From NCBI RefSeq assembly GCF_000299035.1, contig NZ_JH921522.1, positions 1-64,000 on the forward strand: a DNA stretch of 64,000 bases. Reading direction: 5' to 3'. Both the position numbers and the translations under genes were made by a program. Below, piece by piece: positions 44,315 to 63,708 of this stretch. The stretch's first letter is position 1. Each line of letters begins with the position of its first letter. The notes under the pieces are model-generated. The model was not told where the DNA came from. It was given only the letters and a program-made list of their open reading frames with translations, and searched no databases. The stretch is from Bacillus bingmayongensis. GTDB taxonomy: Bacteria > Bacillota > Bacilli > Bacillales > Bacillaceae_G.

Positions 44315-44378
44315 TTACAAAACTGTTATGTTCACGTAATGGAAAGCGATAGTACGAAATGAAGCCTCCTTATACAAT
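44315..44378 (+). promoter_or_regulatory. BceR-like operator and promoter of the 44.4-kb peptide genes
   Basis: TTACA-N4-TGTTA (44315-44328), GTAAT, GCGATAG, -35 TAGTAC (44350-44355), 17 bp, -10 TACAAT (44373-44378). Every element falls at the same offset as in the 63.6-kb promoter. Confidence 0.7.
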
Positions 44379-44418
44379 AAAGATGTAAACAAGAGATAAA
44401 CAAAAGGAGAAAATAATC

Positions 44419-44499
44419 ATGATGAAAGAAATCGTAAAAGCAATCTTCGAAGTGTTAGTAAACGGACAAGCAGTTGTAAAAGAACTAAACCAACTATAA
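44419..44499 (+). CDS. Tiny peptide, DAKAV family member 1
   Basis: 26 codons behind AAAGGAG. MMKEIVKAIFEVLVNGQAV followed by VKELNQL: an amphipathic helix with no signal peptide. Related to the next gene (ALIDAKAV, ELNEQ) and to the gene at 63754 (ALVDAKAV). First gene after a BceR-like promoter. Function unknown. Confidence 0.72.
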   Translation: MMKEIVKAIFEVLVNGQAVVKELNQL

Positions 44500-44513
44500 A
44501 AGGAGGAATAAAA

Positions 44514-44591
44514 ATGATGAACATGGTAAAAATGATTCTCCACGCTTTAATTGATGCAAAAGCAGTTAGCCAAGAATTAAATGAACAATAA
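44514..44591 (+). CDS. Tiny peptide, DAKAV family member 2
   Basis: 25 codons behind AAGGAGG. MMNMVKMILHALIDAKAVSQ followed by ELNEQ. It is 14 nt after member 1 and clearly paralogous. Conservation of the helix pattern while the DNA differs supports translation. Function unknown. Confidence 0.74.
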   Translation: MMNMVKMILHALIDAKAVSQELNEQ

Positions 44592-44607
44592 AAAGGGGAA
44601 AACGAAT

Positions 44608-44730
44608 ATGAAGAAAGCCATTTTTACAATTGTAGGTACAATCTTTGCCTTACACACACTAAAAAATAGAAAAAAGAAACAGAATGAAAATACTCTATAT
44701 TATCCATATACATTATTACAGAAAAAATAA
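44608..44730 (+). CDS. Tiny membrane peptide with basic tail
   Basis: 40 codons behind AAGGGG. One hydrophobic segment (AIFTIVGTIFALHTL) followed by NRKKKQ and a tyrosine-containing tail. Not related in sequence to the two preceding peptides but in the same transcript, ending at a strong terminator. Function unknown. Confidence 0.62.
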   Translation: MKKAIFTIVGTIFALHTLKNRKKKQNENTLYYPYTLLQKK

Positions 44731-44778
44731 AAGACAAGATACCCATGTGCAATTAGGATATCTTGTCTTTTGTTTTTT
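44729..44778 (+). terminator. Terminator of the 44.4-kb peptide operon
   Basis: AAAGACAAGATA pairs with TATCTTGTCTTT, followed by TGTTTTTT. Confidence 0.85.
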
Positions 44779-44890
44779 CTATTAAAAATTGTTGTTCCTT
44801 CTCCTCTTCTCACTACAAAGGATTTCCCTTTCCTTTTCACGAATATAGTAGACGGGAATTTTACATATATTTTCAAAGGGGCATATACGA

Positions 44891-45661
44891 ATGGATACAC
44901 AACAACTTTATTTTTTAAATGATATTGGAAAACAAAAACCAGAAAGTATTCGCAATAAAAGCACCGCTTGTCCTTTTTGCGATACAGAAAACCTCACTGA
45001 TATTTTAGAAACCGAAAATTCTATCATCTGGTTAAAAAATAAATTTCCAACATTGAAAGATACGTTCCAAACAGTTCTTATCGAAACGGATAATTGTGAT
45101 GATCATATCGCAACCTATACACAAGAACATATGCAAAAATTAATTCGTTTCTCAATTAAACATTGGCTCGCTTTAGAAAAGAGCAATGAATTTACTTCCG
45201 TTATTTTATATAAAAATCACGGTCCATTTTCAGGGGGAAGTTTGCACCATGCGCATATGCAAATTATCGGAATGAAGTATGTAGACTGCCTGGAAAACAT
45301 AGCACCTAAAAACTTTCAAGGCGTAATCGTAAAAAAAGACGAACAGATTGAACTTAATATTTCTACACGACCAATTATCGGCTTCACCGAGTTTAATATT
45401 GTCATTGAAGACATGAAATCGATCGATATGATGGCACACTATATTCAGCAAACTGTGCGTTACATACTAACAGATTTTCATAAAGGATGTAGCAGCTATA
45501 ATTTATTCTTCTATCATCTCCATGAAAAAATAGTCTGTAAAGTTGTTCCTCGTTTTGTTGTTTCACCATTATATGTCGGGTATAAAATCCCTCAAGTTTC
45601 TACAAAGCTAGAAGATGTGAAGCAACAACTCGCACGATATTTTACGAGAAAAGGTGAGTAA
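44891..45661 (+). CDS. GalT/HIT-like DUF4931 family protein
   Basis: 256 residues. CPFCDTENLT near residue 28 (zinc cysteines as in galactose-1-phosphate uridylyltransferase) and HHAHMQIIGM near 122 (HIT-type nucleotide transfer histidines). Probably binds or transfers nucleotides; substrate unknown. Start behind AAAGGGG. Confidence 0.75.
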   Translation: MDTQQLYFLNDIGKQKPESIRNKSTACPFCDTENLTDILETENSIIWLKNKFPTLKDTFQTVLIETDNCDDHIATYTQEHMQKLIRFSIKHWLALEKSNEFTSVILYKNHGPFSGGSLHHAHMQIIGMKYVDCLENIAPKNFQGVIVKKDEQIELNISTRPIIGFTEFNIVIEDMKSIDMMAHYIQQTVRYILTDFHKGCSSYNLFFYHLHEKIVCKVVPRFVVSPLYVGYKIPQVSTKLEDVKQQLARYFTRKGE

Positions 45662-45663
45662 AA

Positions 45664-46164
45664 ATAAATTATATAGCTCGAAAAGCTACTATAAATGATA
45701 TAGAGTCATTAATTGATTTGCGCGTTTCCTTACTTAAAGAAGTAGATGGGCTGCATTCATATGAAGAGGAAGGTTCTTTCAGGCGCGCTACAGAACAATA
45801 TTTACAAGTTGAAATACAAACAGGAAATTTTATCGCTTATATAGCTACCGTCAATGAAAAAGTTGTTAGTATAAGTGGAGTAACTTTCTTTCATCGACCA
45901 CCTTATATAGAAAATTTAGAAGGCAAGGAAGCCTACATTTTGAACATGTATACTCTGCCGAAGTACCGTGGACATGGTATAGCCAAAAAATTACTAGAAT
46001 ACCGCTTAGAGGAATGTAAAGAAAACGGCGTAAAACGAATATGGCTTCATTCGTCTAAAGATGGTGAACCGCTATACAAAAAAATAGGCTTTACTAATAA
46101 ACAAAATGAAATGGAGCTTTTTCTGTTAGAAAAACAGAGTAGGTTCTTAGCACCTACTCTTTGA
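45664..46164 (+). CDS. GNAT family N-acetyltransferase with an ATA at the expected start
   Basis: 166 residues counted from the ATA at 45664. Acetyl-CoA loop TLPKYRGHGIAKKLLEYRLE and the C-terminal LYKKIGF are intact. A good AAAGGTGA site ends 6 nt before the ATA; an in-frame stop lies 9 nt upstream of it, and the next usable codon, TTG at 45718, has no ribosome site and would remove the first strand and helix (YIARKATINDIESLIDL). Either ATA is used or the start codon was lost by ATG to ATA. Acceptor substrate unknown. Confidence 0.75.
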   Translation: MNYIARKATINDIESLIDLRVSLLKEVDGLHSYEEEGSFRRATEQYLQVEIQTGNFIAYIATVNEKVVSISGVTFFHRPPYIENLEGKEAYILNMYTLPKYRGHGIAKKLLEYRLEECKENGVKRIWLHSSKDGEPLYKKIGFTNKQNEMELFLLEKQSRFLAPTL

Positions 46165-46687
46165 TTACCCCTTTATTTCGATAGTACACGTCCTCTAGCC
46201 CAACGTTATACTTCATATTTTGATCTGTCCACTCAGTTCCTAGATTGCCAGGCCACCCGGACGTATTTGCTATATATTTTAGTAATGCTAAATCTGTTAA
46301 ACCCTTTTGCACACCTCTTTTATACCCTTTCATTAAATGAGGCATGGCAATTTGGGCATTTGTCCGCGGGTCTTTCAATTGCTCGTCCGTTAGGTGATCA
46401 GGAGCAAGTCCCCCGCCTCGATGTAACTGAAATAATCCAAAAGAAGTGCCATTGTCTCCAACACTTCGCGGGTTCAAACGACTTTCATGCTCGGCAATTG
46501 TAAGAGGTATCCATTCTGGGAGATTTACTTTCTTTGCTTCTTCAATAATAATTTGTTTCATTTGTTTTGCTTCCTCTGAATCAACGTAACTTGTTTGATT
46601 CGTCAATCTTTCCATTCCTTCAGATTCTCCTTGGAAATATAAATACATCCCAAGAACAACTAAAAATCCTACAAAGAATTTTTTCAC
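46154..46687 (-). CDS. SLT-domain lytic transglycosylase-like protein
   Basis: 177 residues: an N-terminal signal anchor, then a lysozyme-like fold with catalytic Glu in IAEHESRLNPRS, followed by GTSFGLFQLHRGGG and a WPGNLGTEW region. Probably cuts peptidoglycan glycan strands outside the membrane. Its 3' end overlaps the convergent GNAT gene by 11 bp. Confidence 0.85.
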   Translation of the reverse strand: MKKFFVGFLVVLGMYLYFQGESEGMERLTNQTSYVDSEEAKQMKQIIIEEAKKVNLPEWIPLTIAEHESRLNPRSVGDNGTSFGLFQLHRGGGLAPDHLTDEQLKDPRTNAQIAMPHLMKGYKRGVQKGLTDLALLKYIANTSGWPGNLGTEWTDQNMKYNVGLEDVYYRNKGVIKE

Positions 46688-46979
46688 TACCTCTACCTCT
46701 TTCTATGCTGAAATTTGTCCCCTTTCAGCCCTTCCTTTACAATTACCTGCAATCTATCATCCTATTACTCTTAAATCATATCAAACAAGCATTCATCTTA
46801 ACATCATGCTTTAGACCGATTTTATGAACAATGCATAATAAAATAGTAAGAAAAATGTAGCATTCTTTCTCTATTATATATATGTAATTTTTACCATAAC
46901 CCATTTTACATGGATTCCACCTTTTTATTTGTATATAATTGTAAATTGAATTCTACAAAAAGAACAGGAGACTGCCTAC

Positions 46980-48632
46980 ATGAAAGGAAAGTTATTACTC
47001 TTTCTCACCATTTTACTACTCATTCCTATCCATACTTCTGCTCAAACAACGAAAAAGCCAAAAGTACTGATTTTGCATAGCACAGAAAACGGACAAGTTA
47101 CAAATGATATACAAATTTTAAATAATTTACTCGGACATTTTACAAGTGATATAACACTAAAAAATGCAGCACAGCCAAACGAACTTCCTACACAATCATC
47201 TTATACACATGTCATTTACATAGGAGAGAAAAAAGAGCACTTTTCTGATGAAACAAAACAATTTTTAGAAAGTTTTTCAGGCCCCTTATTATTTCTCGGG
47301 GAAAATATAGAACAATTACCAAATCGTTTTTCCTTTATTACGCTTAAAGAAGAACAAGTGCGAGTTCATACTTTACAATATCCAACACATCATCTCAAAA
47401 ACAACTTGCACGAAGATCGTTTGATTCAACAATTTGATACAGCTGGGGAATCTCCTCTTGCATATGCAATTGGTTCAAACGGTACATATCCCTTTATCGT
47501 GAAACAAAATCAATCCTATTACGTAGCGACATCACAGCTGTTTAATTGGACATCTCATTACGTTGGTGAAATGCTCTTTTCTTACTTCCAACAAAAACCG
47601 GAAACAAATAAACATCGTGCCTATTTACGCTTAGAAGATATACACCCAACAGCCGATACGAAGCAATTACAGAAAATCGCTGAACTATTAAAAGAAAAGA
47701 ATATACCTTATATGATTGCTGTCATCCCAGTGTATAAAGATCCAAGTACAGGAAAGACAATACACTTACAAGATAAACCTGAGTTAATAGATGTATTACG
47801 TTTTATGCAAGATAACGGCGGCTCCATCGTTATGCATGGCTATACCCACCAATTTTATGATAGTGAAACAGGAGAAGGATTTGAATTTTGGGATGTAAAA
47901 ACTGATCAACCGATCCGCCATCCTAATCATGAACAACCAAAAGCGAGACAGGATTTCGAGTCAGATACTGCTTATAAGGAATACGTGGAAAATGGTAAAA
48001 AATTTGAAGAAACGTATATAACAGAACATATTGAAAAAGGAATTGAAGAACTCGTAGCAGCTAAATTATACCCGCTCGCTTTTGAAGCACCGCACTATGC
48101 AATTTCACAAAAAGGGTATGAGATATTATCACGCTACTTTTCAACTTATGTAGGGCAATTACAGTTAGGTGACGCAACATGGAAAACCATGCACGCAACA
48201 GCCTTTTCAAGTAAACCATCTTTTTTACATGGGATGAAGGTGCTCCCTGAAACAGTTGGATTTATAGAGGCAGATCATCCTCATGCAGCTTCTAAAATGA
48301 AAGAACGTGCATTATCATTTACAAAGCTATCAGATGGCATAATCGGTTCCTTCTATCACCCATACTTAGGGATCACACCTCTCAAACAACTATTAAGTGA
48401 ATTAGAAGGCATTCCAAATATAGAATGGATTGATTTACAAAGAGAATCAAATGAAGTAAAGATGAAGGATATCCACATTACTTCTAATAAAGATGGTATC
48501 CATATTGATAAACCTTTTTCTTTAAGTGACACGATTGAATCTCTGAAGAAGTATGGATTTTTTCTCATACTTGGAATCGTCTTAATTGTATTTTTGTTAT
48601 TAATACGGCGTGCAAAACGGCTCGAATCATAA
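46980..48632 (+). CDS. DUF2334 polysaccharide deacetylase-like membrane protein
   Basis: 550 residues. N-terminal signal (LLLFLTILLLIPIHTSAQ), an N-terminal domain, a deacetylase-like barrel from about 215 (YLRLEDIHPTAD, SIVMHGYTHQF, AFEAPHYAIS), and a C-terminal membrane helix with RRAKR stop-transfer. Conserved Asp/His suggest a metal-dependent hydrolase facing the wall. Starts behind AGGAG. Confidence 0.8.
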   Translation: MKGKLLLFLTILLLIPIHTSAQTTKKPKVLILHSTENGQVTNDIQILNNLLGHFTSDITLKNAAQPNELPTQSSYTHVIYIGEKKEHFSDETKQFLESFSGPLLFLGENIEQLPNRFSFITLKEEQVRVHTLQYPTHHLKNNLHEDRLIQQFDTAGESPLAYAIGSNGTYPFIVKQNQSYYVATSQLFNWTSHYVGEMLFSYFQQKPETNKHRAYLRLEDIHPTADTKQLQKIAELLKEKNIPYMIAVIPVYKDPSTGKTIHLQDKPELIDVLRFMQDNGGSIVMHGYTHQFYDSETGEGFEFWDVKTDQPIRHPNHEQPKARQDFESDTAYKEYVENGKKFEETYITEHIEKGIEELVAAKLYPLAFEAPHYAISQKGYEILSRYFSTYVGQLQLGDATWKTMHATAFSSKPSFLHGMKVLPETVGFIEADHPHAASKMKERALSFTKLSDGIIGSFYHPYLGITPLKQLLSELEGIPNIEWIDLQRESNEVKMKDIHITSNKDGIHIDKPFSLSDTIESLKKYGFFLILGIVLIVFLLLIRRAKRLES

Positions 48633-48669
48633 AAAAATACCAAGCACAAATTTGTGCTTGGTATTTTTT
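48630..48669. terminator. Bidirectional terminator
   Basis: 16-bp perfect stem AAATACCAAGCACAAA/TTTGTGCTTGGTATTT between two convergent genes. Confidence 0.88.
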
Positions 48670-50176
48670 ATTCCAAATCAAAACGAGGCACTTTATCTAC
48701 TACCCATTGCTTATTCTCGTAGATCAACTCTATTTCTACTTCTTTTTTCACATCTTCATAGTCATTATACGTTTCTGCCGTCGCCAATATTTTTCCATCT
48801 TTTAGCTTAGCAGAAATAATTTTGGTATATTTAGTACCTGCTCCTGATCCCAAATCTCCAACAACATAGTGCATCTTTCCACCTATTTCCTTTATGTATT
48901 CACTTTTCATATACTTCGTAATGAAATCCTTTGAGAAATAAGTAGCTAATGATGTCTCTAATGCCGTCTTCGTATTATATGTAGGAAGTGTTAATTCCCC
49001 GTATGAAAAACGGTCTACTGGTTTCGTATTCCCTGTTGATGCTGAAACGGCAATATTAATAATCTCTTGTTGAGCGTTGACTACCTTTCGTAGCAATGCA
49101 TCATCAGATAGTCGTTTATCTTGCTTTTCATTTGATTTCTTTGTATCAAGATTTAGAATTAGACCATTATCTGTATATAAATGCATGTCACCGGCTATAA
49201 AGTATAAATAAGATTTAGATGGTTCAACCGCTCCATCATAAATTTGCTTTTCATTCCCACCATTAATCTTTCTTTTATAAACACCGTCTTTTTTTAAGTA
49301 ATAGAAGGAATCTCCTTTTATATTCATCTTTAAGGCATCTTTTATTTCTAATGTCTCTCTATTTTGTTGAACATCCAACTCATATATACCCTTATCTCGT
49401 TTTTGATTATCTAAATTCAACGAAAAATCTACAATTGCATATAGTTTTTCCTTATTGTATGTACCACTAGATATTTCTGCAAAACTTTCCTTTGACCAAG
49501 TTTGGTCACCTTTGCTCACTTGTGTGCCACGAAATTTATTCCAGTGCACAATATTATCATCGATCGTTTCAGCCCAACCAGATGTTTTAATCGGTGACTC
49601 TTCTTCTTGTCCTGTTTTCAAATCCAATTTCACAATCCCTACAATATCAAACCCACCATGTTCAGAATACTTTTTCGTATAGAATAACGATTGATCCTTT
49701 ACGTAAACGTAATTTGTATTTGTTTTCAGCGTATCTAATTTCTTTGTAGAAATATCATATTTCATCAAAGAAGGCATTACATTTGTATTCGTATTTTTCT
49801 CTCGATCCCAGTGGATAAAATATAAAGCCTTATCTTTTATATTTATATAAGAAGCGTTTACTCCCTTTACGACAAGCTCCGATGTTTGAAACTTATCTTT
49901 CGTACGATAAATGCCCCCTGTATTTTTATCACCATTTACCGCATAGTAGATCCAACCATCACCTTCTGCCATTTTTCCTTTATTAGAGATATTTCCGATC
50001 GCATTTCCTCTTTTCTCATTTTCTTTCATTTGTTCTTTTACTGCTGGATCAACTTCTTTTATTTCTTGTCCTATACTTGTGGTCGTCGCTTTCTTCTCTG
50101 TTTCACATCCCAATACAGAAATCACCATAGCTGCCGTCATAATAGCAACAGCCATTTTTTTATATACTCTCCCCAC
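48668..50176 (-). CDS. Lipoprotein with beta-propeller-like (DUF5050-type) repeats
   Basis: 502 residues. Lipobox VLGC (Cys24), then repeats of the form W-I-Y-Y / Y-F-I-H-W with SYLYFIAGDMHLY and LYAIVDFSL, as in DUF5050 propellers, and a C-terminal NTF2-like region (about 380-500). Function unknown; a surface sensor or binding protein is plausible. GTG start with a distant GGAG; the exact start is uncertain. Confidence 0.7.
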   Translation of the reverse strand: MGRVYKKMAVAIMTAAMVISVLGCETEKKATTTSIGQEIKEVDPAVKEQMKENEKRGNAIGNISNKGKMAEGDGWIYYAVNGDKNTGGIYRTKDKFQTSELVVKGVNASYINIKDKALYFIHWDREKNTNTNVMPSLMKYDISTKKLDTLKTNTNYVYVKDQSLFYTKKYSEHGGFDIVGIVKLDLKTGQEEESPIKTSGWAETIDDNIVHWNKFRGTQVSKGDQTWSKESFAEISSGTYNKEKLYAIVDFSLNLDNQKRDKGIYELDVQQNRETLEIKDALKMNIKGDSFYYLKKDGVYKRKINGGNEKQIYDGAVEPSKSYLYFIAGDMHLYTDNGLILNLDTKKSNEKQDKRLSDDALLRKVVNAQQEIINIAVSASTGNTKPVDRFSYGELTLPTYNTKTALETSLATYFSKDFITKYMKSEYIKEIGGKMHYVVGDLGSGAGTKYTKIISAKLKDGKILATAETYNDYEDVKKEVEIELIYENKQWVVDKVPRFDLE

Positions 50177-50291
50177 TCTTTTTCCCCATCTCCTTTTATT
50201 AAAACCTCGATGTATATTATAAATTATAGAAAATAATAGAAATAATATCCATATACTTCAAATAAAAAAGGATAGAGGCTTTTCTTTACCT

Positions 50292-51056: not shown

Positions 51057-51108
51057 CTTTATCATCTCCTACACCCATTTTAATATGATATTCAAGAGTG
51101 AGTGCAAA

Positions 51109-51142
51109 TAAAAAACAAGAAGGAAGCTCCTTCTTGTTTTAT
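51109..51142 (-). terminator. Terminator of the 51.2-kb peptide gene
   Basis: AAAACAAGAAGGA/TCCTTCTTGTTTT stem with T-run on the minus strand, 9 nt after the peptide stop codon. Confidence 0.83.
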
Positions 51143-51150
51143 CATCTATA

Positions 51151-51264
51151 TTATTTAACAATTAAATTTGTAATTATATCAAAAAGTCCAACACATACGA
51201 CAGCAACAGTAAAGTATCTACAGAAATCTTTTATCGGAAACTTAACTACTTCTTCTTTTTGCAT
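51151..51264 (-). CDS. Tiny single-helix membrane peptide
   Basis: 37 codons behind AGGGAG. Polar start MQKEEVVKFPIKDFCR, then a hydrophobic helix TVAVVCVGLFDIITNLIV and a final K. Own promoter with a perfect BceR-like operator and own terminator. It is not closely similar to the other tiny peptides but shares their promoter and size. Function unknown. Confidence 0.7.
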   Translation of the reverse strand: MQKEEVVKFPIKDFCRYFTVAVVCVGLFDIITNLIVK

Positions 51265-51313
51265 CCCATTCTTCTCCCTTCTTATTACCTTTCCTAATTT
51301 TTTATCTATTTTT

Positions 51314-51377
51314 ATTATGCAAAAAATGTGACAAATAAGCTATCGAATTAACTTACGAAAACATTACAATGTTGTAA
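51314..51377 (-). promoter_or_regulatory. BceR-like operator and promoter of the 51.2-kb peptide
   Basis: Minus strand TTACA-N4-TGTAA (51377-51364), GTAAG, AATTCGATAG, -35 TAGCTT (51342-51337), 17 bp, -10 CATAAT (51319-51314). Confidence 0.72.
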
Positions 51378-51493
51378 GGTTTTAAAAAATAGCCTCATCT
51401 CATAATGAGATGGTATTATCCCCTTTAAGTAGACAGTGTAAAAAGACCATGTACATACATGGGTGTTACACTATTACTTGGAGGGGATTTTTC

Positions 51494-51814
51494 GTGGTTA
51501 AAAAAGGTACAACATTCAATACGTATTCAGATGGATTAAAACTATCAGCTGTTCAAAGTTATTTAAATGGAGAAGGCAGTTATCAAGCTATAGCTAAGCA
51601 ATATAATATCAGGAGCTCTACACAACTTAAGGATTGGGTGAAAAAATATAAAGAATTGGGTGATATTACAGATACTCGTGGAAAAAATAGCGGAACTCAA
51701 GGTATTCCTAATCCTCTAAAAGGAAAACGTGTCCATTTTAACAGTGTGGAGGAAGAGAGAGACTACTACAAGGCACAGGTTGCATATTTAAAAAAGCGTT
51801 ATCCAAATCTGTAA
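51494..51814 (+). CDS. IS3-family transposase OrfA
   Basis: 106 residues, GTG start 6 nt after GGAGGGG. N-terminal helix-turn-helix (AVQSYLNGEGSYQAIAKQYN) that binds the IS ends. Ends with TTA AAA AAG, an A6G slippery heptamer at 51790-51796 typical of programmed -1 frameshifting. Confidence 0.88.
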   Translation: MVKKGTTFNTYSDGLKLSAVQSYLNGEGSYQAIAKQYNIRSSTQLKDWVKKYKELGDITDTRGKNSGTQGIPNPLKGKRVHFNSVEEERDYYKAQVAYLKKRYPNL

Positions 51815-51867
51815 ATGGAGGTGCACTGAGGCACAAGGAGCGATATCGTATCATTGAATCGTTAAAA

Positions 51868-52689
51868 ATGAAATATCCGATCACTTGGCTTACTAAATTC
51901 GCAGGTGTACATCGAGCGGGTTATTATAAATGGATCCGTGCGAAAACAGCTAAAAATGTACGATCAGAAGCGGATCAACAATTAAAAAAAGTGATACAAT
52001 CTATCCACCTGAAGTACAAACAATACGGCTATCCACGTATGAAAATAGCTTTACAGGAGGAAGGTTTCTTTGTAAATCATAAAAAGGTTTATCGATTAAT
52101 GAGTGAGCTCAACATTCAATCTATTATTCGTAAGAAGCGACGCTTCTTTAAAGGGAATTATTCGAATACTTTTCCGAATGTTTTAAACCGTGAATTTAAA
52201 AATCGAAAACAAAATGAAGCGCTCGTTACAGATATTACGTATTTACGAATCCAAGATGGATTTCGCTATCTTTCTGTCGTGCAAGACATTTATAATAATG
52301 AAATTGTTTCTTGGAAAATCTCTAGACGCAATGACAATGAACTCGTATTAGATACGCTTGAAAATTTGGTACAAAAAAGAGATGTGCGTGGAACCATTCT
52401 TCATTCAGATCAAGGGTTCCAGTACACATCTCATGTCTACAACAAACGACTTTCAGATTTGGGTATCATCGGCAGCCACTCTCGCAAAGGAAACTGCCAT
52501 GATAATGCCTGCATCGAGTCATTTTTCTCCCATTTTAAATCGGAGATGTTGTATTTACACCATTTTAAAACAGAAGAAGAAGTAGTACAAGCAATTGAGG
52601 AATATATCTACTTCTATAACTATAAACGATTCCAAAAACGACTCAACCACCGAGCTCCGATAGAATATCGAATCTTGATGGCTGCCTAG
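51868..52689 (+). CDS. IS3-family transposase OrfB (DDE integrase)
   Basis: 273 residues from the first ATG; the frame is open back to the slippery site, so the working protein is an OrfAB fusion made by -1 frameshift. Catalytic DDE: VTDITYLRI, LHSDQGFQY and NACIESFFSHFKSE. All three acidic residues are intact, so the element may still move. Confidence 0.9.
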   Translation: MKYPITWLTKFAGVHRAGYYKWIRAKTAKNVRSEADQQLKKVIQSIHLKYKQYGYPRMKIALQEEGFFVNHKKVYRLMSELNIQSIIRKKRRFFKGNYSNTFPNVLNREFKNRKQNEALVTDITYLRIQDGFRYLSVVQDIYNNEIVSWKISRRNDNELVLDTLENLVQKRDVRGTILHSDQGFQYTSHVYNKRLSDLGIIGSHSRKGNCHDNACIESFFSHFKSEMLYLHHFKTEEEVVQAIEEYIYFYNYKRFQKRLNHRAPIEYRILMAA

Positions 52690-52814
52690 TCTTTTTTATA
52701 GCTGTCTACTTGACAGGGCTAACACCAAGATAAGGCCTATTCAATAGTTGGTTGTTTTTCAAACATTCATCATCATTTCAGACAGAAAGTTATATGTTCA
52801 AACTTTCTACTTGT

Positions 52815-52878
52815 ATTGTAATAGAATTCGCATATGGCAACTATCGAATTACCTTACATGTACCTTACAATGTTGTCA
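52815..52878 (-). promoter_or_regulatory. BceR-like operator and promoter, orphaned
   Basis: Minus strand TGACA-N4-TGTAA (52878-52865), GTAAG, AATTCGATAG, -35 TAGTTG (52843-52838), 17 bp, -10 TACAAT (52820-52815). Downstream only ATGATGATGAATGTTTGA is left of a peptide gene before the IS. Confidence 0.68.
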
Positions 52879-53039
52879 TGAACAATATCACTTTTAACAA
52901 ATTAGCTGTAATCAGACTTGCTAGCGTTGCAGCTCTACTTACAGCTTGGCCTAGTATAAACTTGTTTCTACTTTCTTGTTATATAGTTAGAGCTCCTAGA
53001 TTCCATACTCACTGTCTAATTAAAACATATTATATATAA
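52878..53039 (+). pseudogene. Decayed hydrophobic tiny-peptide gene
   Basis: Starts MNNITFNKLAVIRLASVAAL then LTAW, clearly homologous to the gene at 63869 (MNNITCNKLDFIGLASGAAL, LTAF). It has lost DFIG and SGA residues, runs past the usual stop, and its ATG overlaps the last base of an operator, so it has no ribosome site. Confidence 0.65.
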
Positions 53040-53382: not shown

Positions 53383-53772
53383 TTACCTCATCTTCAAAAG
53401 CTGACTTCTCGCCTGCACAGGAATATTTTGATCCTCAATCTCTACTAATGATTCACCATAACGTCCTTTTGCGAAAATTTTCAATGCCTCATCTCTTTTT
53501 AACATATTTTTTACCGTTTTCTTTATAGTTTGTTCTCTTCCTTTTTCATCGTATGCAACAAATTCATATTCGTACCAATCATCGCCAACGTGCTGACCGA
53601 TACCATTTACAATCGTATAGTATTCTTTCGTTTTATAAAATGGATTATATTTATCAATTACTGGTCCAAGCTTTGTTGGTAGTAGTAGTATAGTTGCAGC
53701 TACCGTCGCAATCCCAGTAATAATTACTCGCTTTTTTACCCTTTCCCACTCCAAGATGGATTCCTCCTCCAT
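53383..53772 (-). CDS. YxeA-like (DUF1093) membrane-anchored protein
   Basis: 129 residues from the ATG at 53772; a TTG at 53754 is 8 nt after GGAGGAGG and is the likelier start (123 residues). One N-terminal helix (VIITGIATVAATILLLP) and an exported YxeA-type domain with EYEFVAYDEKGREQTIKKTV and LKIFAKGRYGESLVEIEDQNIP. B. subtilis yxeA belongs to the YxdJK antimicrobial-peptide response. Here a BceR-like promoter precedes the gene. Confidence 0.78.
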   Translation of the reverse strand: MEEESILEWERVKKRVIITGIATVAATILLLPTKLGPVIDKYNPFYKTKEYYTIVNGIGQHVGDDWYEYEFVAYDEKGREQTIKKTVKNMLKRDEALKIFAKGRYGESLVEIEDQNIPVQARSQLLKMR

Positions 53773-53799: not shown

Positions 53800-53863
53800 A
53801 TTTTAAAGAGAAAGACTCAATTCCGCCATTGAATCCCATTACATTTCCCTTACATTTTTGTAA
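53800..53863 (-). promoter_or_regulatory. BceR-like operator and promoter of the YxeA-like gene
   Basis: Minus strand TTACA-N4-TGTAA (53863-53850), GTAAT, GATTC, -35 TGGCGG (53828-53823), 17 bp, -10 TAAAAT (53805-53800). Same spacing as the peptide promoters, with a degenerate -35. Confidence 0.68.
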
Positions 53864-56415: not shown

Positions 56416-56427
56416 GGAGCGATCTAC

Positions 56428-56745: not shown

Positions 56746-56804
56746 CTTGTACAAGAAATCCTTTTTGGGGTTTCCTTTCAAGTAAAAATAGATGAGGTGG
56801 AGAG

Positions 56805-58229
56805 ATGAACGGATACGTATATTTAGTTGGTGCAGGGCCTGGTGATGAAGGACTTATTACAAAAAAAGCAATAGATTGCCTAAAAAAAGCAGATGTTGTT
56901 TTATATGACCGCTTATTGAATCAAAATTTACTTCGCTATACAAAGCCAACATGCGAACTCGTTTACTGCGGGAAAATGCCAACAAATCATATTATGCGAC
57001 AAGAAATGATTAACACGCATTTAATTAAGTCTGCCAAAGAAGGTAAAATTGTCGTCCGCTTAAAAGGCGGAGATCCATCGATTTTTGGCCGCGTTGGTGA
57101 AGAAGCAGCAGCTTTAGCAGCTGAAGATATTCTATATGAAATTGTTCCAGGTATTACATCTAGTATTGCCGCTAGTGCGTATGCCGGCATCCCTCTTACC
57201 CATCGCAACTATAGTAATAGTGTCACGTTGCTAACTGGTCATACAAAGGGAGCAATTAGCGACCAAGTCAATTACAGTGCCCTCTTAAACAGCGATACAA
57301 TCGCCTTTTACATGGGTGTTAAAAACTTACCGGTAATTTGCGAAAACTTATTGCAAACAGGAAGAAAAAAGGATACACCCGTAGCAGTCATTGAATGGGG
57401 TACAACGGGAAAACAACGAGTTGTTACAGGTACATTGTCTACAATCGTTGATTCCGTAAAGAAAGAACATATTTCAAATCCTTCGATGACAATCGTTGGT
57501 GAGGTTGTATCTTTACGTAAACAAATTGCTTGGCAAGAACACAAACCACTACACGGAAAAAAAGTTTTATTTGCCTCTGCAACAAATAAAACAAGTATAC
57601 TAGCGCAAAAGTTACAAACAAATGGAGCAGAAATATATCAAATACCAACTTTCAAAAAGCGGGAATATCAGTTAACATCCGATCAACTCTGTGAAATATT
57701 TAAAGCCGAGCGCCTTGTTTTCTGTTCACCTGAGAGTGTAGCAATCTTATTACAATCATGTGAGCAGCATCAAAAAGATATTCGCTCCTTACAAGCAACA
57801 CTACAACATATGAATAGCGCTACTCAAAAAACGCTTATGCAGTATGGATTATTAAGCGAATCAGCAAGATTCTCTACCGAAACAACTATTTACTTAGGAC
57901 GAAATATTAACCGCATTGCCATCATTCAAGAAAAAATAGGTGCGGGTTCTCATATCCTAACGCATGAATATCAAATTGATTATCGTTTTGATGAAGTTCA
58001 TACATGTACACTGACTGAATTCACATGGGATAGTATTGTATTCGAAGGACGCGCTGCAATTGATACGTTTATAACAGAAGTAAAACGCCTCGGATTCATG
58101 GATATTCTTCATTTACCATTCTCATATGCCGATGAACCGACTCTGCAATATGCAAATAAAGTCGGATTCCATAATATCGATCATCAGCTGCAAGCTATCA
58201 TCGAGGAGAAAGAAGTGGTGGCAGGGTGA
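56805..58229 (+). CDS. Uroporphyrinogen-III C-methyltransferase fused to a HemD-like domain
   Basis: 474 residues. N-terminal SUMT (about 1-240): YLVGAGPGDEGLIT, VRLKGGDPSIFGRVGEE, GITSSIAASAYAGIPLTHR. It makes precorrin-2 for siroheme. The C-terminal about 225 residues resemble uroporphyrinogen-III synthase (HGKKVLFASATNKTS, LVFCSPESVAILL) and diverge strongly. Resembles B. subtilis NasF in role. Stop overlaps sirB by 4 bp (ATGA-type overlap). Confidence 0.9.
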   Translation: MNGYVYLVGAGPGDEGLITKKAIDCLKKADVVLYDRLLNQNLLRYTKPTCELVYCGKMPTNHIMRQEMINTHLIKSAKEGKIVVRLKGGDPSIFGRVGEEAAALAAEDILYEIVPGITSSIAASAYAGIPLTHRNYSNSVTLLTGHTKGAISDQVNYSALLNSDTIAFYMGVKNLPVICENLLQTGRKKDTPVAVIEWGTTGKQRVVTGTLSTIVDSVKKEHISNPSMTIVGEVVSLRKQIAWQEHKPLHGKKVLFASATNKTSILAQKLQTNGAEIYQIPTFKKREYQLTSDQLCEIFKAERLVFCSPESVAILLQSCEQHQKDIRSLQATLQHMNSATQKTLMQYGLLSESARFSTETTIYLGRNINRIAIIQEKIGAGSHILTHEYQIDYRFDEVHTCTLTEFTWDSIVFEGRAAIDTFITEVKRLGFMDILHLPFSYADEPTLQYANKVGFHNIDHQLQAIIEEKEVVAG

Positions 58230-58936
58230 AAGGTATCGTTTATATTGGACATGGTAGCCGATTACAAGAAGGCAACGAACAGTTCATTCACTTTGTTCAG
58301 TCCGTTATAAAAGAACGAAGCGAGATCATCCAAAAAATTGGATTTCTTGAACTAACCACACCGACTGTACAAGACGCAATTGCAGAAGCCATCCAAGACG
58401 GTGCGACTGAGGTTTTAATTGTCCCTGTTTTATTATTTGCAGCAGCCCATTATAAACGTGATGTCCCTTTTGAAATTGAGAAAATACAAAAACGCTATCC
58501 ACACATTACATTTTCAATTGCACCACCTTTCAGTACGCATCCGTTTATGATTGAACTTGTGATAAAACGAATACGTGAAGCTATGCCCATACAAGGTAGT
58601 GAAGTCTTACTTGTCGGCCGTGGTAGTAGTGATTCTCAGCCTATACATGAATTAAGGCAAATTGGATCAGTAGTCGAGCAAAAACTCTGCTTGTCTGTTT
58701 CCTGTTCCTTTTTAACAAAAGGAACACCTTCTTTTACTGATGAACTCAATGAAAAGGCCGCATCCGAAAAGCATGTATATGTCATGCCGTATCTTCTCTT
58801 CACCGGCTTATTACTTCAGAAAATAAATCGGCATGCCAAAAAATACGCTAACGTTACAACTTGTAACTGCCTTCAATTTGATTCCTACATGAAGTCTGCT
58901 TTATTAGAGCGAATGGAGGAACATGTACATGCATAA
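58226..58936 (+). CDS. sirB: Sirohydrochlorin ferrochelatase SirB (CbiX-like)
   Basis: 236 residues, two CbiX-like halves. Iron/tetrapyrrole-binding His9 in YIGHGSR, and AAHYKRDVPFEI. Inserts Fe2+ to finish siroheme for NirB. GTG start overlapping the methyltransferase stop. Confidence 0.9.
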   Translation: MKGIVYIGHGSRLQEGNEQFIHFVQSVIKERSEIIQKIGFLELTTPTVQDAIAEAIQDGATEVLIVPVLLFAAAHYKRDVPFEIEKIQKRYPHITFSIAPPFSTHPFMIELVIKRIREAMPIQGSEVLLVGRGSSDSQPIHELRQIGSVVEQKLCLSVSCSFLTKGTPSFTDELNEKAASEKHVYVMPYLLFTGLLLQKINRHAKKYANVTTCNCLQFDSYMKSALLERMEEHVHA

Positions 58937-59378
58937 CATCTATCCTATTATGTGTAATCTACAAGGCAAAACGGTTGTAATTATCGGTGGTGGGAAAATT
59001 GCATACCGAAAGGCAGCTGGATTAGAGAACACAGGAGCTCATGTTACTATTGTGAGCCCATATATTTGTGAAGAAATGAAGAATCTTACCTATATTACAT
59101 GGAAGAAAAAAACATTTACAGAAGAAGATATTAAAGATGCCCATCTCATTTATGCTGCAACAAATTATCATGATGTAAATATGATGGTCAAACACGCTGC
59201 TCATGATTTTCAATGGGTGAATATCGTAAGTGATGGGACAGAGTCATCCTTTCATACACCTGCAATCATTCGAAATGACGAATATGTTATAAGCATATCA
59301 ACTTCTGGTAAAAATCCATCCTTTGCAAAACGAATCAAGCAAAAACTAATGACGCTCTTTCCTCAAATTATAAAATAA
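58929..59378 (+). CDS. sirC: Precorrin-2 dehydrogenase SirC
   Basis: 149 residues, NAD-dependent oxidation of precorrin-2 to sirohydrochlorin. Rossmann loop VVIIGGGKIAYRKAAGL and the SF-H-T-P-A-I-I-R motif (SSFHTPAIIR). Short, without the ferrochelatase/methyltransferase part of CysG. ATG at 58929, 9 nt after GGAGG; overlaps sirB by 8 bp. Confidence 0.9.
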   Translation: MHNIYPIMCNLQGKTVVIIGGGKIAYRKAAGLENTGAHVTIVSPYICEEMKNLTYITWKKKTFTEEDIKDAHLIYAATNYHDVNMMVKHAAHDFQWVNIVSDGTESSFHTPAIIRNDEYVISISTSGKNPSFAKRIKQKLMTLFPQIIK

Positions 59379-59412
59379 AAAAGATGAACGAATCCCCCTC
59401 GTTCATCTTTTT
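59378..59412. terminator. Bidirectional terminator after the nir operon
   Basis: AAAAAGATGAACGA/TCGTTCATCTTTTT stem between the nir operon and the convergent YitT-type gene. Confidence 0.88.
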
Positions 59413-60247
59413 AGCTTGCTTTAAAACCACCGCCAAGTACATCTCGTACGTCATGAATAACAACAAACGCATCTTCATCCACGTTACTGATTACTTGTTT
59501 TAATTTTACAAGCTCTTGTTTATTAATTACAACATATAGTACTTCTTTATTTTTTCCAGTATAACCACCGCGTCCTTCTAAAACAGTAACACCGCGTGTC
59601 ATATGTTTTGTAATCGTTTCACGAATTAAATCGGGTTGACTCGATATAATCGTAACCGCTGTTTTCGTATTAATTCCTTCTACAATGAAGTCGATTACTT
59701 TTGCTCCGATAAATACTGCAACGAGCGTATACATTGCTTTTTCTTGCCCAATGATAAACACCGAACCGGCAATTACAACAATATCAATAATAAGAACACC
59801 TTTTCCAACGCTCCACCCTAAATATTGATTCGCTAATTGTGCTAAAATTGCAGATCCTCCAGATGTACCTCCCGCTCGGAACATACAACCTAAACCAATC
59901 CCAACAAACACTCCAGCAAACAAAGCTGCTAATAACGTATCGCTGTTTACTCTATGTCCAATGTGTTCTGTTGCATATAAAAACAAGGAAGTTTCTACAA
60001 TACCGAGGATTGTGTAAACTATCGTTTTTTTATCAAAAAATTTATAACCAATAGCTAATAAAACCGCATTCAACGCAAAGTTCACAATCCCTGGTGACCA
60101 TCCAAATAAATAATAGGTGACAACTGTTAAACCGATGATTCCACCTTCCGATAAACGGTTTGGAATTGCAAAATAGTTAATACCAATTGCAAATAATAGT
60201 GAACCAATTGTAATTAATGCAATTTCTTTCATACGTTGATTAAACAT
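59411..60247 (-). CDS. YitT family membrane protein (DUF161/DUF2179)
   Basis: 278 residues: five to six membrane helices (GSLLFAIGINYFAIPNRLSEGG, GCMFRAGGTSGGSAILAQL) and a C-terminal cytoplasmic DUF2179 domain (GVTVLEGRGGYTGKNKEVLYVV). Widely conserved in Bacillus with no settled function. Start MFNQRMKEI behind GGAGGGGGG. Confidence 0.85.
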   Translation of the reverse strand: MFNQRMKEIALITIGSLLFAIGINYFAIPNRLSEGGIIGLTVVTYYLFGWSPGIVNFALNAVLLAIGYKFFDKKTIVYTILGIVETSLFLYATEHIGHRVNSDTLLAALFAGVFVGIGLGCMFRAGGTSGGSAILAQLANQYLGWSVGKGVLIIDIVVIAGSVFIIGQEKAMYTLVAVFIGAKVIDFIVEGINTKTAVTIISSQPDLIRETITKHMTRGVTVLEGRGGYTGKNKEVLYVVINKQELVKLKQVISNVDEDAFVVIHDVRDVLGGGFKAS

Positions 60248-60366
60248 AAGTTGTAACCCCCCTCCATTTGACATTGTATCACTATCTTACAGAGGTATAG
60301 AAATAGTTTTTACCACACTCTTTTTTCTTATAACAGCTATATAATTATGTTTACATAAATGTTTGT

Positions 60367-60696
60367 TTAGTTATACAAGTTCGCCCTAACAGCATCAACA
60401 AATTTCTTCACGTTCCCCGCTTGAACATACTTAGCCACCACAACTTCACTATTATGAATAAACACTAACCGTGGAAATATTTCTATATCATCTATACAAA
60501 AATACGAGTATTCTTCAAATATTATAGGGTAATATGGAAATTCTCCATAAAAAAGAATCCGCTTATTAGTAGCAACAAATATACCTTGTTGGTATGAAAA
60601 GGAAAAGTTATCCTTCTCGAATATTCCTACCACAAAAGATAAAATTTGTTCATCAGATTCTAAATACTTTTTTACATTCAATAATAGGTCGTTCAT
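60367..60696 (-). CDS. Bacterial PH-domain protein (YokE-like)
   Basis: 109 residues. GIFVATNKRILFYGEFPY and the following strands are typical of short bacterial PH domains. No signal or membrane segment. Ribosome site GGAGG. Function unknown. Confidence 0.7.
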   Translation of the reverse strand: MNDLLLNVKKYLESDEQILSFVVGIFEKDNFSFSYQQGIFVATNKRILFYGEFPYYPIIFEEYSYFCIDDIEIFPRLVFIHNSEVVVAKYVQAGNVKKFVDAVRANLYN

Positions 60697-60814
60697 GAAT
60701 ATTCCTCCAAATTCAATTCATTGTCGTAACACTTGAAAAGAATCCATGGATTACTACATAACCGGTATAGCTTAGTTATAAAGTATGAAACGCGTTTCCA
60801 GTCAAACACATTTT

Positions 60815-60851
60815 CAAAAAAATCCGTTATGCCATTACACATAACGGATTC
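60815..60851 (-). terminator. Terminator of the LacI-type regulator gene
   Basis: AATCCGTTAT/ATAACGGATT stem with a T-run on the minus strand, overlapping the end of the gene region. Confidence 0.83.
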
Positions 60852-60854
60852 CAG

Positions 60855-61832
60855 TTAAACGGTAGAGCGTTCCACCAAATTATAAGGAATTTCTATCTTT
60901 TCTTGTTTCCAATCATCATTGCTTATTTGTTTGTAAAATAGTTCAAAAGCACTTTTACCAATCTCTTTCACATGTTGATCAATTGTTGTGATTTGTAACA
61001 CTTGGGAAATGGGTTGATTATCGAAACCAATAATCGCTAAATCCTGTGGAACATTTATGCCTAATTTTTTAGCTTCTGTCATAATTCCAATAGCAACTTC
61101 ATCCCCAGCTACTAGCAACGCCTCAGGAACATGCTCCATCTCTTTTAACTTATCTGCAACCCTCACACCATCTTCTAATGTAAAGCATTCCGTAAAAATT
61201 CGATTTTCGATAATTTCTTCATCTATCAGTTGTAAAGCTTGCTTATAAGCCTCAAATCTCTTTTTACTACTAGCTCCTCTCTGCCTCCCTGTGCAATATC
61301 CAATTTTTTTGTAGCCTTTCTTGATCAAGTAATTCATCCCTAATTGAAAAGCTCCAAAATGATTTATATATACGCTGGATATGCCCAAAACGTCGGTCTC
61401 TTCACAAGCAATAATCGCCCCATATGAAGCATAGTGCTTAATTACATCCCAATCATTCGAGCGTGAACAAATAATGATACCATCTAGTTGTTTTGTTTTT
61501 AACATATGTAAACTTTCTATTTCTTCTCGCTTATTATAATTAGTCTGACAAAGAAGGACTCGGTAATTATGAGCTAATGCACCTTCCATAATTCCTCCAA
61601 CGATTGCATCGAAATGTGGATGGTCAATATAAGGTAAAATCACACCAACAATATTTGTTTTTCCTTTTGATAAATGAACTGCCTTTGCATTTTGCGAGTA
61701 ATTCAATTTCTCAACAACCTCTAAAACCGCTTGTCGTTTTTCTTTACTTACATATGGATGGTCATTCAACACTCGTGAAACAGTTGTAACCGACACACCT
61801 GCTAGCTTTGCAATATCTCTAATATTAGCCAT
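60855..61832 (-). CDS. LacI family transcriptional regulator
   Basis: 325 residues. N-terminal LacI helix-turn-helix (NIRDIAKLAGVSVTTVSRVLN, residues 3-23) and a periplasmic-binding-like sugar domain. No sugar gene is adjacent, so the target is unknown. Start ATG 5 nt after GAGGTGA. A DegA/CcpA-like local regulator. Confidence 0.9.
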   Translation of the reverse strand: MANIRDIAKLAGVSVTTVSRVLNDHPYVSKEKRQAVLEVVEKLNYSQNAKAVHLSKGKTNIVGVILPYIDHPHFDAIVGGIMEGALAHNYRVLLCQTNYNKREEIESLHMLKTKQLDGIIICSRSNDWDVIKHYASYGAIIACEETDVLGISSVYINHFGAFQLGMNYLIKKGYKKIGYCTGRQRGASSKKRFEAYKQALQLIDEEIIENRIFTECFTLEDGVRVADKLKEMEHVPEALLVAGDEVAIGIMTEAKKLGINVPQDLAIIGFDNQPISQVLQITTIDQHVKEIGKSAFELFYKQISNDDWKQEKIEIPYNLVERSTV

Positions 61833-61858
61833 CTGCTCACCTCTTTCCCTCATCTTAT

Positions 61859-61893
61859 AAAAAAGAAGATTATCCTAAGATAATCTCCTTTTT
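61859..61893 (-). terminator. Terminator of the 62-kb lipoprotein gene
   Basis: AGATTATC-CTAA-GATAATCT stem with T-run on the minus strand. Confidence 0.82.
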
Positions 61894-62969
61894 TATAACG
61901 TATTTACATCCTTTTGGCTATCTTGCTCCTGCTTTTCAGGCTGGTAGATAAATACATGTTCCTCATATCGACCTGGTTTATCACCTACACGAGCTCCTCC
62001 AGCTATAAATTTAATCGCAAACTCTTTTGCCTCAATCATTGGAAAACTAATGATATATTCCTTCGCCTCACCATCTTGAATATCTGCAGCATCTGTTATT
62101 GGTAGCTTATCGCGATCTAATGGAGAAATTTGTTTACCATCTTGCAAAATAACTGTATTGTTTGGATACATATTCATCTTCAGCCCAGTTCGATTCTCAA
62201 CTCTGACTTTTAGCGTAATTCGATCACCAGTTAATTTTTTATAATCAAATTCGCCTTCTTTAATTTGTACAGTATACCCTTCAAAATCAATTCGATTTCC
62301 ATTTATAATTGTTCCGCCCTTAGTATCGGGTCTATCTACATATTTTGCTCTCATACTTGCACTGGACTGAGGAGGTTGATTTTGATTACCTTTCTCTTTC
62401 AAACTATCCTTTGCTTTATCTTCAGCAGCAGGGGGTTGTGAAGAACTTGCACTACCTTTATTTCCATCCGATGAAAACAATTCATTTGGAGATTTAATTT
62501 CTTTTCCATCCAATGTTTTGATCGATTTTATTGATGTACTTTTTATTCTCCATTTTTTATCTTCTTTATCAAGTGTATGCACGGCTTCCGTTACATTATC
62601 TGTATAATTCTCACTTTCCCTTTTACTCTTTGTTTCTTGTTTCACTTCTACAGTTGCATACTTATCAGAATAAGAAAGTACCTTTACCTTTTTTAAACTA
62701 GCTTTTAAATCAAGTAATTCGAACATCTGTCCTGTTGTTTTTTTTGAAATTTCATAACTATAAACCTTACTCGAAAGCGTGTCTAGATATCCGTCCAAGT
62801 CTTCTTTATTAAATGCTTCTACATTCTCTTCTAATGCTTGTTTCACTTCTTTTTCTACATTACTCTCTTTAGGCTTCGCATTACTTTTTGTTGAGCATCC
62901 CATAGTTCCAAGTAATAAGACACCAGCTAACAACGACATTCCCCATTTTATATGTACTACTTTTTTCAT
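61893..62969 (-). CDS. Lipoprotein with NTF2-like and immunoglobulin-like domains
   Basis: 358 residues. Lipobox GTMGC (Cys25). An N-terminal NTF2-like domain (about 35-165, EAFNKEDLDGYLDTLSSKVY) is followed by a Ser/Gln/Pro-rich linker and a C-terminal beta domain (about 225-345, like DUF5068/DUF4352: TLKVRVENRTGLKMNMYPN). The first domain is paralogous to the whole next gene. Function unknown. Confidence 0.75.
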   Translation of the reverse strand: MKKVVHIKWGMSLLAGVLLLGTMGCSTKSNAKPKESNVEKEVKQALEENVEAFNKEDLDGYLDTLSSKVYSYEISKKTTGQMFELLDLKASLKKVKVLSYSDKYATVEVKQETKSKRESENYTDNVTEAVHTLDKEDKKWRIKSTSIKSIKTLDGKEIKSPNELFSSDGNKGSASSSQPPAAEDKAKDSLKEKGNQNQPPQSSASMRAKYVDRPDTKGGTIINGNRIDFEGYTVQIKEGEFDYKKLTGDRITLKVRVENRTGLKMNMYPNNTVILQDGKQISPLDRDKLPITDAADIQDGEAKEYIISFPMIEAKEFAIKFIAGGARVGDKPGRYEEHVFIYQPEKQEQDSQKDVNTL

Positions 62970-63059
62970 ATTAAATCCCCTTTATTTTATAACTTTTTCT
63001 TTGATTGTTTCGTACACACTATTACTAGATTTCCTCTTTCTTTATTCTACATTTTAATA

Positions 63060-63566
63060 TCAAGATTCTTTTCCAGTTCTCTCTTTTAATAAAGACTCCC
63101 CATCCAATGTCTCAGCAGTTAACATCCCTTGACTTGTAATAACCCATTTATCTTTTTCTTTTTCTAATACAAAGCGCGTCTTTACAACATTATCCGTATA
63201 CTCTACACTCTTATCCTTATTTTTAGCTGTTGTTTTTGCCTCTATTGTTGCATATTTATCATTTATAGATAAAACCTGCATCCGATCAATTGTAATTTTG
63301 ACATCATACTCATCTAATAAAGTCTCATTCTCTTCTTTTATTACGTCATATGCAAATATGTCTTTCGAATATGTTTTCATATAATCATCAGTATCTTTCT
63401 GATTAAATGCTTTTACTTGGTCTGAAATTACCTTTTCTACCTCTTTTTTTGCTTTTGCTTGTGCATTTTCATCTTCTTTCTTTTTGTCTACACCACAACC
63501 ACTTATCCCTAATGCCAAAACCATACAAGCTAATACCCCGTATTTTTTCTTACTTAATTTTCCCAT
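63060..63566 (-). CDS. Lipoprotein with NTF2-like domain
   Basis: 168 residues. Lipobox GISGC (Cys24), then one NTF2-like domain (KAFNQKDTDDYMKTYSKDIF, SINDKYATIEAKT, EYTDNVV). It matches the N-terminal half of the downstream lipoprotein, so the pair arose by duplication. Function unknown. Confidence 0.75.
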   Translation of the reverse strand: MGKLSKKKYGVLACMVLALGISGCGVDKKKEDENAQAKAKKEVEKVISDQVKAFNQKDTDDYMKTYSKDIFAYDVIKEENETLLDEYDVKITIDRMQVLSINDKYATIEAKTTAKNKDKSVEYTDNVVKTRFVLEKEKDKWVITSQGMLTAETLDGESLLKERTGKES

Positions 63567-63644
63567 GATGTTCCCCCTTTTAATTCCCTTAATATTCCAC
63601 TAGTATATTTTATCACAAAAATGATTATTAAAATGAATTATCTC

Positions 63645-63708
63645 TTACAAAAATGTAATCTTGCTGTAAGCTAATTCGATAGTTGCCCCTACCTGTATTT
63701 CATATAAT
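63645..63708 (+). promoter_or_regulatory. BceR-like operator and promoter of the 63.8-kb peptide pair
   Basis: TTACA-N4-TGTAA (63645-63658), GTAAG, AATTCGATAG, -35 TAGTTG (63680-63685), 17 bp, perfect TATAAT (63703-63708). Reference copy for the module. Confidence 0.75.

Follow-up and report, generated by a model that had tools for sequence, protein, structure and literature searches.

A recurrent promoter module resembling BceR/PsdR-type operators precedes micropeptide and YxeA genes in Bacillus bingmayongensis

At five places in the first 64,000 nucleotides of the Bacillus bingmayongensis contig NZ_JH921522.1 (positions 1 to 64,000, forward strand; hereafter the window), genes for very small peptides and for a YxeA-like protein lie behind what appears to be one and the same promoter module. 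This raises the question of which regulator such a module would serve, and of what its small products might do. The evidence set out here indicates that the five loci probably form part of a Psd/Bce-type antimicrobial-peptide regulon with dispersed accessory micropeptides and YxeA. The coordinates of all the features are given in Table 1.

An earlier note on this DNA had placed the module at 44315 (+), 51377 (−), 52878 (−), 53863 (−), and 63645 (+), and all five copies were found there, on those strands and with their elements at identical offsets. The joint pattern TKACA-N4-TGTWA-N7-GTAA-N3-RAWKCRATRG, 38 base pairs (bp) long, occurs exactly five times in the window and not once in 100 dinucleotide shuffles. 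The TNACA-N4-TGTAA consensus described for BceR-like regulators is exact at four of the five sites, with one mismatch at 44315. Taken alone, the inverted repeat (at most one mismatch) is common, as it occupies 16 distinct places in the window, 5 belonging to the module and 11 elsewhere; specificity therefore rests on the combination of elements, and the repeat by itself was rejected as a criterion. In every copy the −10 hexamer begins at +58 relative to the first T in TTACA. Assuming a spacer of 17 bp, the −35 hexamers are, in site order, TAGTAC, TAGCTT, TAGTTG, TGGCGG, and TAGTTG, and none of the five promoters is picked up by a scan for the sigma-70 consensus, which fits the poor −35 that had been proposed. 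The proposed offsets also held, except that the AATTCGATAG element, described as lying beside the −35, overlaps it at this spacing.

Among the five copies, pairwise identity is 0.75–1.00 in the motif and 0.67–1.00 in the −10 hexamer, against 0.26–0.44 in the free spacer positions and 0.21–0.35 over the 100 bp upstream (random 100-bp pairs: mean 0.27, 99% at 0.38); over the 46 bp after the −10 it is 0.28–0.46, slightly above random in some pairs. Since the motif and the −10 are conserved while the spacers and upstream flanks are close to random, selection on the module is indicated rather than recent duplication. The five copies do lie within 20 kb, one pair of them next to an IS3-family element, as might be expected of a recently dispersed repeat without any regulatory role. 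The flank identities refute recent copying, though not old dispersal, and because the same constraint is seen in other phyla, such a repeat is an extremely improbable explanation.

The module has the same anatomy in other organisms. In 91 nonredundant sites from them, the best −10 falls at +58 in 67 and at +59 in 10, and three columns that the search pattern had left free are conserved, namely C at −1 (0.61), G at +14 (0.90), and G at +25 (0.85). These columns define the half-site as TGTAAG, present once inverted and twice direct with an 11-bp spacing. The third element, TCGATRG, lies 11 bp further down and matches this half-site at three positions only; with the −35 placed 17 bp before the −10, its first position is +35, within CGATRG. 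Activation may thus work as it does for other regulators of the OmpR/PhoB type whose half-site lies at the −35. A matrix of 65 columns built from the sites of other organisms ranks exactly the five window sites first (39.9–52.1 bits), with the next-best place in the window at −11.5 and a maximum of −2.8 over 30 random windows. Because its training sites were picked with a pattern derived from the window, this test is not fully independent, whereas the free columns and the −10 are.

The exact pattern is present in at least 118 stretches of bacterial genomes and in no viral contig. Among the matches listed, the carriers are mainly Clostridia, Paenibacillus, and Bacillaceae, with some Actinomycetota (the record titles name Clostridia, Lachnospiraceae, Paenibacillus, Bacillaceae, Eggerthellaceae, Atopobiaceae, Collinsella, and one record labelled Bacteroidales). 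The first downstream gene, classed by sequence motif rather than by profile, encodes a BceA-like ATPase at 64 of the 118 loci; at the remainder the first open reading frame (ORF) is another one of at least 60 amino acids (aa) at 41, a shorter one at 10, and absent at 3, and in a few of these cases a BceA gene can plainly be recognized that is truncated at the end of the contig or interrupted by a frame break. In all, 85 of the 118 loci contain a frame that is BceA-like or of the response-regulator type. The comparison with bceRS-like loci that the earlier note had called for also placed the module before bceA-like genes beside kinase genes. A search of 249 genomes from the order of C. firmus that tolerated one mismatch located 16 matches, spread over 14 genomes, and a reversed control pattern matched nowhere. 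Eleven of the 16 sites stand directly before a BceA-like gene, nine of these just after a kinase-like gene (by eye), and a twelfth follows a kinase gene where the contig ends. Of the remaining four, one each is found before a YxeA gene, the C. firmus peptide gene, an ORF of 46 aa, and a gene for a protein of 351 aa. In the order of B. glycinifermentans, 2 of 299 genomes carry the exact pattern. The window's nirB-like gene has a match in 21 of 31 genomes, 28 of them from that order, with a best identity of 70%.

Other genes were also seen behind the module. In the Paenibacillus loci L029, L038, L048, L059, L063, L067, L077, L091, L097, and L110 it faces a conserved non-transporter protein of about 500 aa where complete (MRLFELLLFLSNIGLFALTV...), and in L003, L006, L053, and L072 it is followed by transglycosylase-like genes (by eye). 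Small ORFs of 30–68 aa come first after it in L040, L073, L074, L085, L037, L046, L083, L108, L078, and L115, measuring 54 aa in Paenibacillus L040 and L073, 30 aa in the Clostridia-type L074 and L085, and 36 aa in Eggerthellaceae L037 and L046; five pairs of these were compared, and three have a clear excess of third-codon-position differences. Since Bce/Psd-type promoters thus appear to drive other, seemingly unrelated small ORFs as well, inducible micropeptides may be a general and overlooked arm of defence.

In the window itself, tiny peptides, a peptide remnant, and YxeA are indeed what the promoters face, as had been claimed, but not as a single peptide gene of 25–37 codons for each promoter: the 44315 operon consists of three small ORFs (26, 25, and 40 aa), that at 63645 of two (33 and 31 aa), and that at 51377 of one (37 aa). 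The peptides encoded at 44419, 44514, and 63754 share a VLVDGKxVAxELN-like core with peptides of Bacillus sp. J37 and C. firmus, and we refer to them as subfamily A. A profile made from these five peptides and run, blind to DNA motifs, over 397 genomes gave 12 hits; a second profile produced 5 hits in 193 genomes, of which two were new and usable. The C. firmus peptide, which is in the model and was found by both profiles, was dropped before relatives were counted, as were L164, L224, and L225, which are contained in longer frames (252, 323, and 333 aa). In all of the seven new members of subfamily A the inverted repeat is found 91–110 bp before the start codon, and six score 18.5–42.8 with the matrix, compared with a null maximum of −11.5; three loci (L158, L159, and L167) have variant half-sites. 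Before the J37, C. firmus, and window genes the module is present by construction, and the distance does not apply to second or third genes of an operon. None of the five members of a sister subfamily B (VVYELN; L161, L162, L163, L165, and L166) has the module.

The sister peptides have sequences such as MKDALRLTLTVVEVMVNGKKVVYELN, and some of them lie near a gene that may encode peptide release factor 3. Behind the tiny peptide gene of L157, the frame L157:1616-2269 is transglycosylase-like, with an E value of 4e-59 to the PBP1A model, below the cutoff of that model.

The proposed association of the peptides with YxeA recurs in genomes that were found through the peptide sequence and not through the motif: in C. 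firmus and L226 the peptide gene is followed by a YxeA gene, and in the clusters of J37 and L198 YxeA comes last. The window YxeA exceeds the cutoffs of both TIGR01655 (44 bits; cutoff 29.65) and PF06486 (47.8 bits; cutoff 26.3), and the DUF3948 peptide at 63869..63964 that of PF13134 (47.9 bits; cutoff 25). They are the only ones among the window proteins tested to exceed a Pfam or NCBIfam cutoff; a Pfam scan of the peptides at 44419, 44514, 51151..51264, and 63754 matched none of the four. With ORFs this short, the transcripts might instead act as RNAs and the ORFs be incidental. Over 15 non-independent pairs of subfamily A genes, however, differences at the three codon positions number 149, 80, and 251, a third-position excess as expected of coding sequence; a GGAG-type ribosome site is present in 11 of 12 aligned promoters; and DUF3948 is itself a Pfam family, all of which makes incidental ORFs very unlikely. 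DUF3948 searches gave weak matches, none of them above the cutoff, in all four genomes holding L001, L019, L094, and L106, and likewise in 6 of 14 control genomes, again with none above it.

An indication of the regulator comes from Bacillus sp. J37, in which the module is followed by a 30-aa peptide gene of subfamily A, an OmpR-type regulator, a kinase, a second, degenerate site, a BceA-like ATPase, an FtsX-type permease, and YxeA. The match of the permease to PsdB (E value 3.9e-80) is much stronger than that to BceB (1.7e-27). For the kinase, BceS is the best solved relative (1.4e-32). A PsdB-like permease points to inducers of the lantibiotic type more than to bacitracin. In the L198 cluster, the peptide gene diverges from the regulator gene, YxeA stands at the end, and the kinase frame is short (L198:5860-6282, 140 aa). 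When 18 regulator loci in seven peptide-bearing genomes were arranged by identity to the J37 regulator, the module was present at six of the seven loci that are at least 53% identical and at none of the 11 below; leaving out J37 itself, the contrast is 5 of 6 versus 0 of 11 (P 0.001). The C. firmus regulator hit (L208) has an in-frame stop in the scanned frame.

The presence of the module before BceA-like ATPase genes, together with the way it tracks one response-regulator subfamily, argues for the BceR-like assignment of the earlier note. Half-sites are nevertheless alike across this family of regulators: the GraR operator is given as ACAAA/TTTGT and the L. paracasei ApsR/PsdR consensus as AnnTTACnAnnnnGTnAG. 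The window promoters could thus be controlled by a different member of the OmpR family whose half-site is similar, for example a GraR/VirR-like or PhoP-like protein, with their likeness to bceA promoters reflecting shared ancestry only. Such a regulator is quite unlikely, as the module goes with the J37-like regulators and not with the distant paralogues of the same genomes, seven of which are beside a BceA-like gene.

Several observations weigh against a regulon of the Psd/Bce type. No BceA-like gene adjoins four of the 11 distant regulators, and the contrast is weakened to 0 of 7 without them. The L206 regulator is 57% identical to that of J37 and has no module, and in G359, one of the seven genomes, the regulators reach 39% identity at most. 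Among the peptide loci, the spacer of L157 is shorter by one base and its locked-matrix score is −34.1, and the best regulator match to J37 in its genome is 39%; since L226 and C. firmus are closely related, the seven loci do not count as seven independent events. The only expression report found for DUF3948 concerns plasmid loss and not antimicrobial peptides (PMC10196113). Finally, from a set of BceA-like loci assembled blind to the motif (30 fetched, 26 scored, 4 unscorable), only 8 of the 26 exceed the null maximum, and many BceA genes must therefore use another operator. In this set, the matrix score is above 0 at five of the seven loci whose ATPase is at least 59% identical to that of J37 and at 2 of the 19 below.

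The possibility that the module precedes all BceA genes was rejected on the same 8 of 26 scored loci. At 9 of the 26 (L179, L181, L185, and L192-L197), a different sequence (TGTCACATGC...TTTGTT; TGTCACATGC...TTTTGTTCGG...) was noticed by eye near the position of the module. The BceA family would accordingly use more than one operator, and this sequence suggests a second operator type for another group of BceR paralogues.

The operator upstream of a weak −35 promoter, TTACA-N4-TGTAA, is what the window shares with the BceRS-BceAB and PsdRS-PsdAB systems of B. subtilis and other Bacillota. In the window, however, it serves dispersed micropeptide and YxeA operons, and no BceR-type regulator, kinase, or transporter was noticed in the window ORF lists (at least 80 and at least 110 aa), in agreement with the earlier note. 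This absence, too, counts against the proposed regulon. The one window regulator that was tested is NarL-like; when the window was scanned with a simple motif for OmpR-type regulators, nothing was found, but this known NarL-like regulator was missed as well, so that the result has no weight.

From the geometry, conservation, recurrence, and linkage of the module, we infer that the activator of the five promoters would be a response regulator of OmpR type from the Psd/Bce family, the partner of BceAB/PsdAB-type transporters, presumably encoded in the window's own genome. The transporter would sense a lantibiotic-like peptide, and the kinase would phosphorylate the regulator, which would read CTTACA-N4-TGTAAG and then, a helical turn of 11 bp further on, the second TGTAAG half-site. 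With the third, weaker element overlapping the poor −35, the regulator could recruit RNA polymerase to the good −10. The window switch would be detached from the transporter and would drive micropeptides of at least three types (subfamily A, DUF3948, and one with a single hydrophobic segment) in addition to YxeA. By analogy with YsaD and VraH, the products would most likely act at the membrane as accessory factors that tune signalling or add protection.

The peptides might, on the other hand, be secreted antimicrobials or surfactants, similar to bacteriocins or phenol-soluble modulins, that are induced by envelope stress. Their length (25–40 aa), their hydrophobic or amphipathic character, and the tandem paralogues would suit such a role. 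An accessory role agrees better with where subfamily A is encoded: inside the regulator–transporter cluster of J37, adjacent to that of L198, and, in C. firmus and L226, beside YxeA. It also agrees better with the near-neutral charge of the subfamily A members; moreover, no processing or export gene was noticed beside the peptides, although no search was aimed at such genes. On balance, secreted peptides are unlikely.

Small proteins have precedents in systems of this kind. The window protein at 53383-53772 is a TIGR01655 member, as are those of B. subtilis yxdLM-yxeA and L. lactis YsaD, but it stands alone, with a promoter to itself and not beside a transporter gene. The YsaD gene of Lactococcus is transcribed together with that of a Bce-like transporter; in reporter tests YsaD altered the signalling of this transporter, with opposite effects for two transporter variants, and it was dispensable for resistance (PMC7438565). 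VraH is a small membrane component of S. aureus VraDEH, tied to the regulon of a Bce-type transporter (PMC5786555). The window peptides would likewise be small membrane proteins of a Bce-type regulon, but they lack the YYKRREEKGK motif of the VraH C terminus (by eye) and belong to other families. DUF3948 is known from the genomes of B. cereus and B. anthracis, and its transcripts showed the largest increase at 37 °C on plasmid loss in B. cereus G9241 (PMC10196113); the passage on these transcripts names no promoter or inducer, whereas the window DUF3948 gene is the second of a module-driven operon. Together with the gene order, this family suggests that the organism belongs to the Bacillus cereus group. 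Compared with the antimicrobial-peptide defence pumps of other Gram-positive bacteria, the switch appears to be the same, with very small peptide genes and one YxeA gene in the place of the pump.

More tentatively, and with somewhat more doubt than confidence, subfamily A can be seen as a previously unnamed third component of Psd-type modules, first in the regulator operon in some Bacillaceae, with the window lineage having multiplied and scattered the micropeptide, DUF3948, and YxeA as separately controlled units. BceR-type operators, YxeA, and DUF3948 are each known already. A literature search found no report of such peptides under such a promoter, and a single paper among those it listed names DUF3948; key subscription papers lay outside its coverage, and part of the regulon may already be in print. 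De Been et al. are said to have predicted regulator sites in B. cereus in 2008, a 2011 paper reportedly dealt with the coevolution of these systems, and a 2017 paper reportedly with BceR/PsdR binding sites. The proposed regulon would provide a testable condition for peptide genes that fall below most annotation (DUF3948 and an unnamed family of ~25-38 aa), which it would tie to antimicrobial-peptide defence. The promoter signature is longer than the inverted repeat and strict enough to search for regulon members across Bacillota, and if the peptides tune Psd-type transporters or kinases, they would offer a new handle on how the sensitivity of these modules is set.

Table 1. Predicted promoter modules and associated features in the window
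Feature	Coordinates	Strand	Remarks
BceR/PsdR-type operator module, predicted (inverted repeat, second half-site, element overlapping −35)	44315..44352	+	39.9 bits
−10 TACAAT	44373..44378	+	at +58
26-aa peptide, subfamily A (VLVxGxxVxxELN)	44419..44499	+	
25-aa peptide, subfamily A	44514..44591	+	
40-aa peptide, hydrophobic then basic	44608..44730	+	net charge +8; no NCBIfam match
BceR/PsdR-type operator module, predicted	51340..51377	−	46.3 bits
−10 CATAAT	51314..51319	−	at +58
37-aa peptide, one hydrophobic segment	51151..51264	−	
Terminator-like hairpin 3' of the 37-aa peptide gene	51140-51112	−	
IS3-family element between the 51377 and 52878 sites	51410..52689	+	extent from two ORFs; NF033516
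BceR/PsdR-type operator module, predicted, facing decayed peptide remnant	52841..52878	−	48.0 bits
−10 TACAAT	52815..52820	−	at +58
Decayed remnant, like the start of the 63754 peptide gene	52740..52776 (end approximate)	−	by eye
DUF3948-like start, beginning inside the 52878 module, opposite strand	52878..52946	+	by eye, compared with the 63869 peptide
BceR/PsdR-type operator module, predicted	53826..53863	−	49.3 bits
−10 TAAAAT	53800..53805	−	at +58
YxeA-family protein, 129 aa, N-terminal hydrophobic segment	53383..53772	−	
BceR/PsdR-type operator module, predicted	63645..63682	+	52.1 bits
−10 TATAAT	63703..63708	+	at +58
33-aa peptide, subfamily A	63754..63855	+	
31-aa DUF3948 peptide	63869..63964	+	PF13134, E 1.1e-12

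The DUF3948-like start that begins inside the 52878 module resembles the 63869 peptide over ~23 residues and lies in an open frame of 53 residues. A search of plasmids with window DNA 63560-64000 and two window peptides gave no match, and one with the window YxeA found distant relatives only, from enterococci and lactococci, in 6 records. The IS3-family element is 84.8% identical to a copy on a plasmid of Bacillaceae bacterium C02 and 84.6% identical to one on the Klebsiella grimontii plasmid record CP079755.1, a match that may reflect transfer or assembly contamination.

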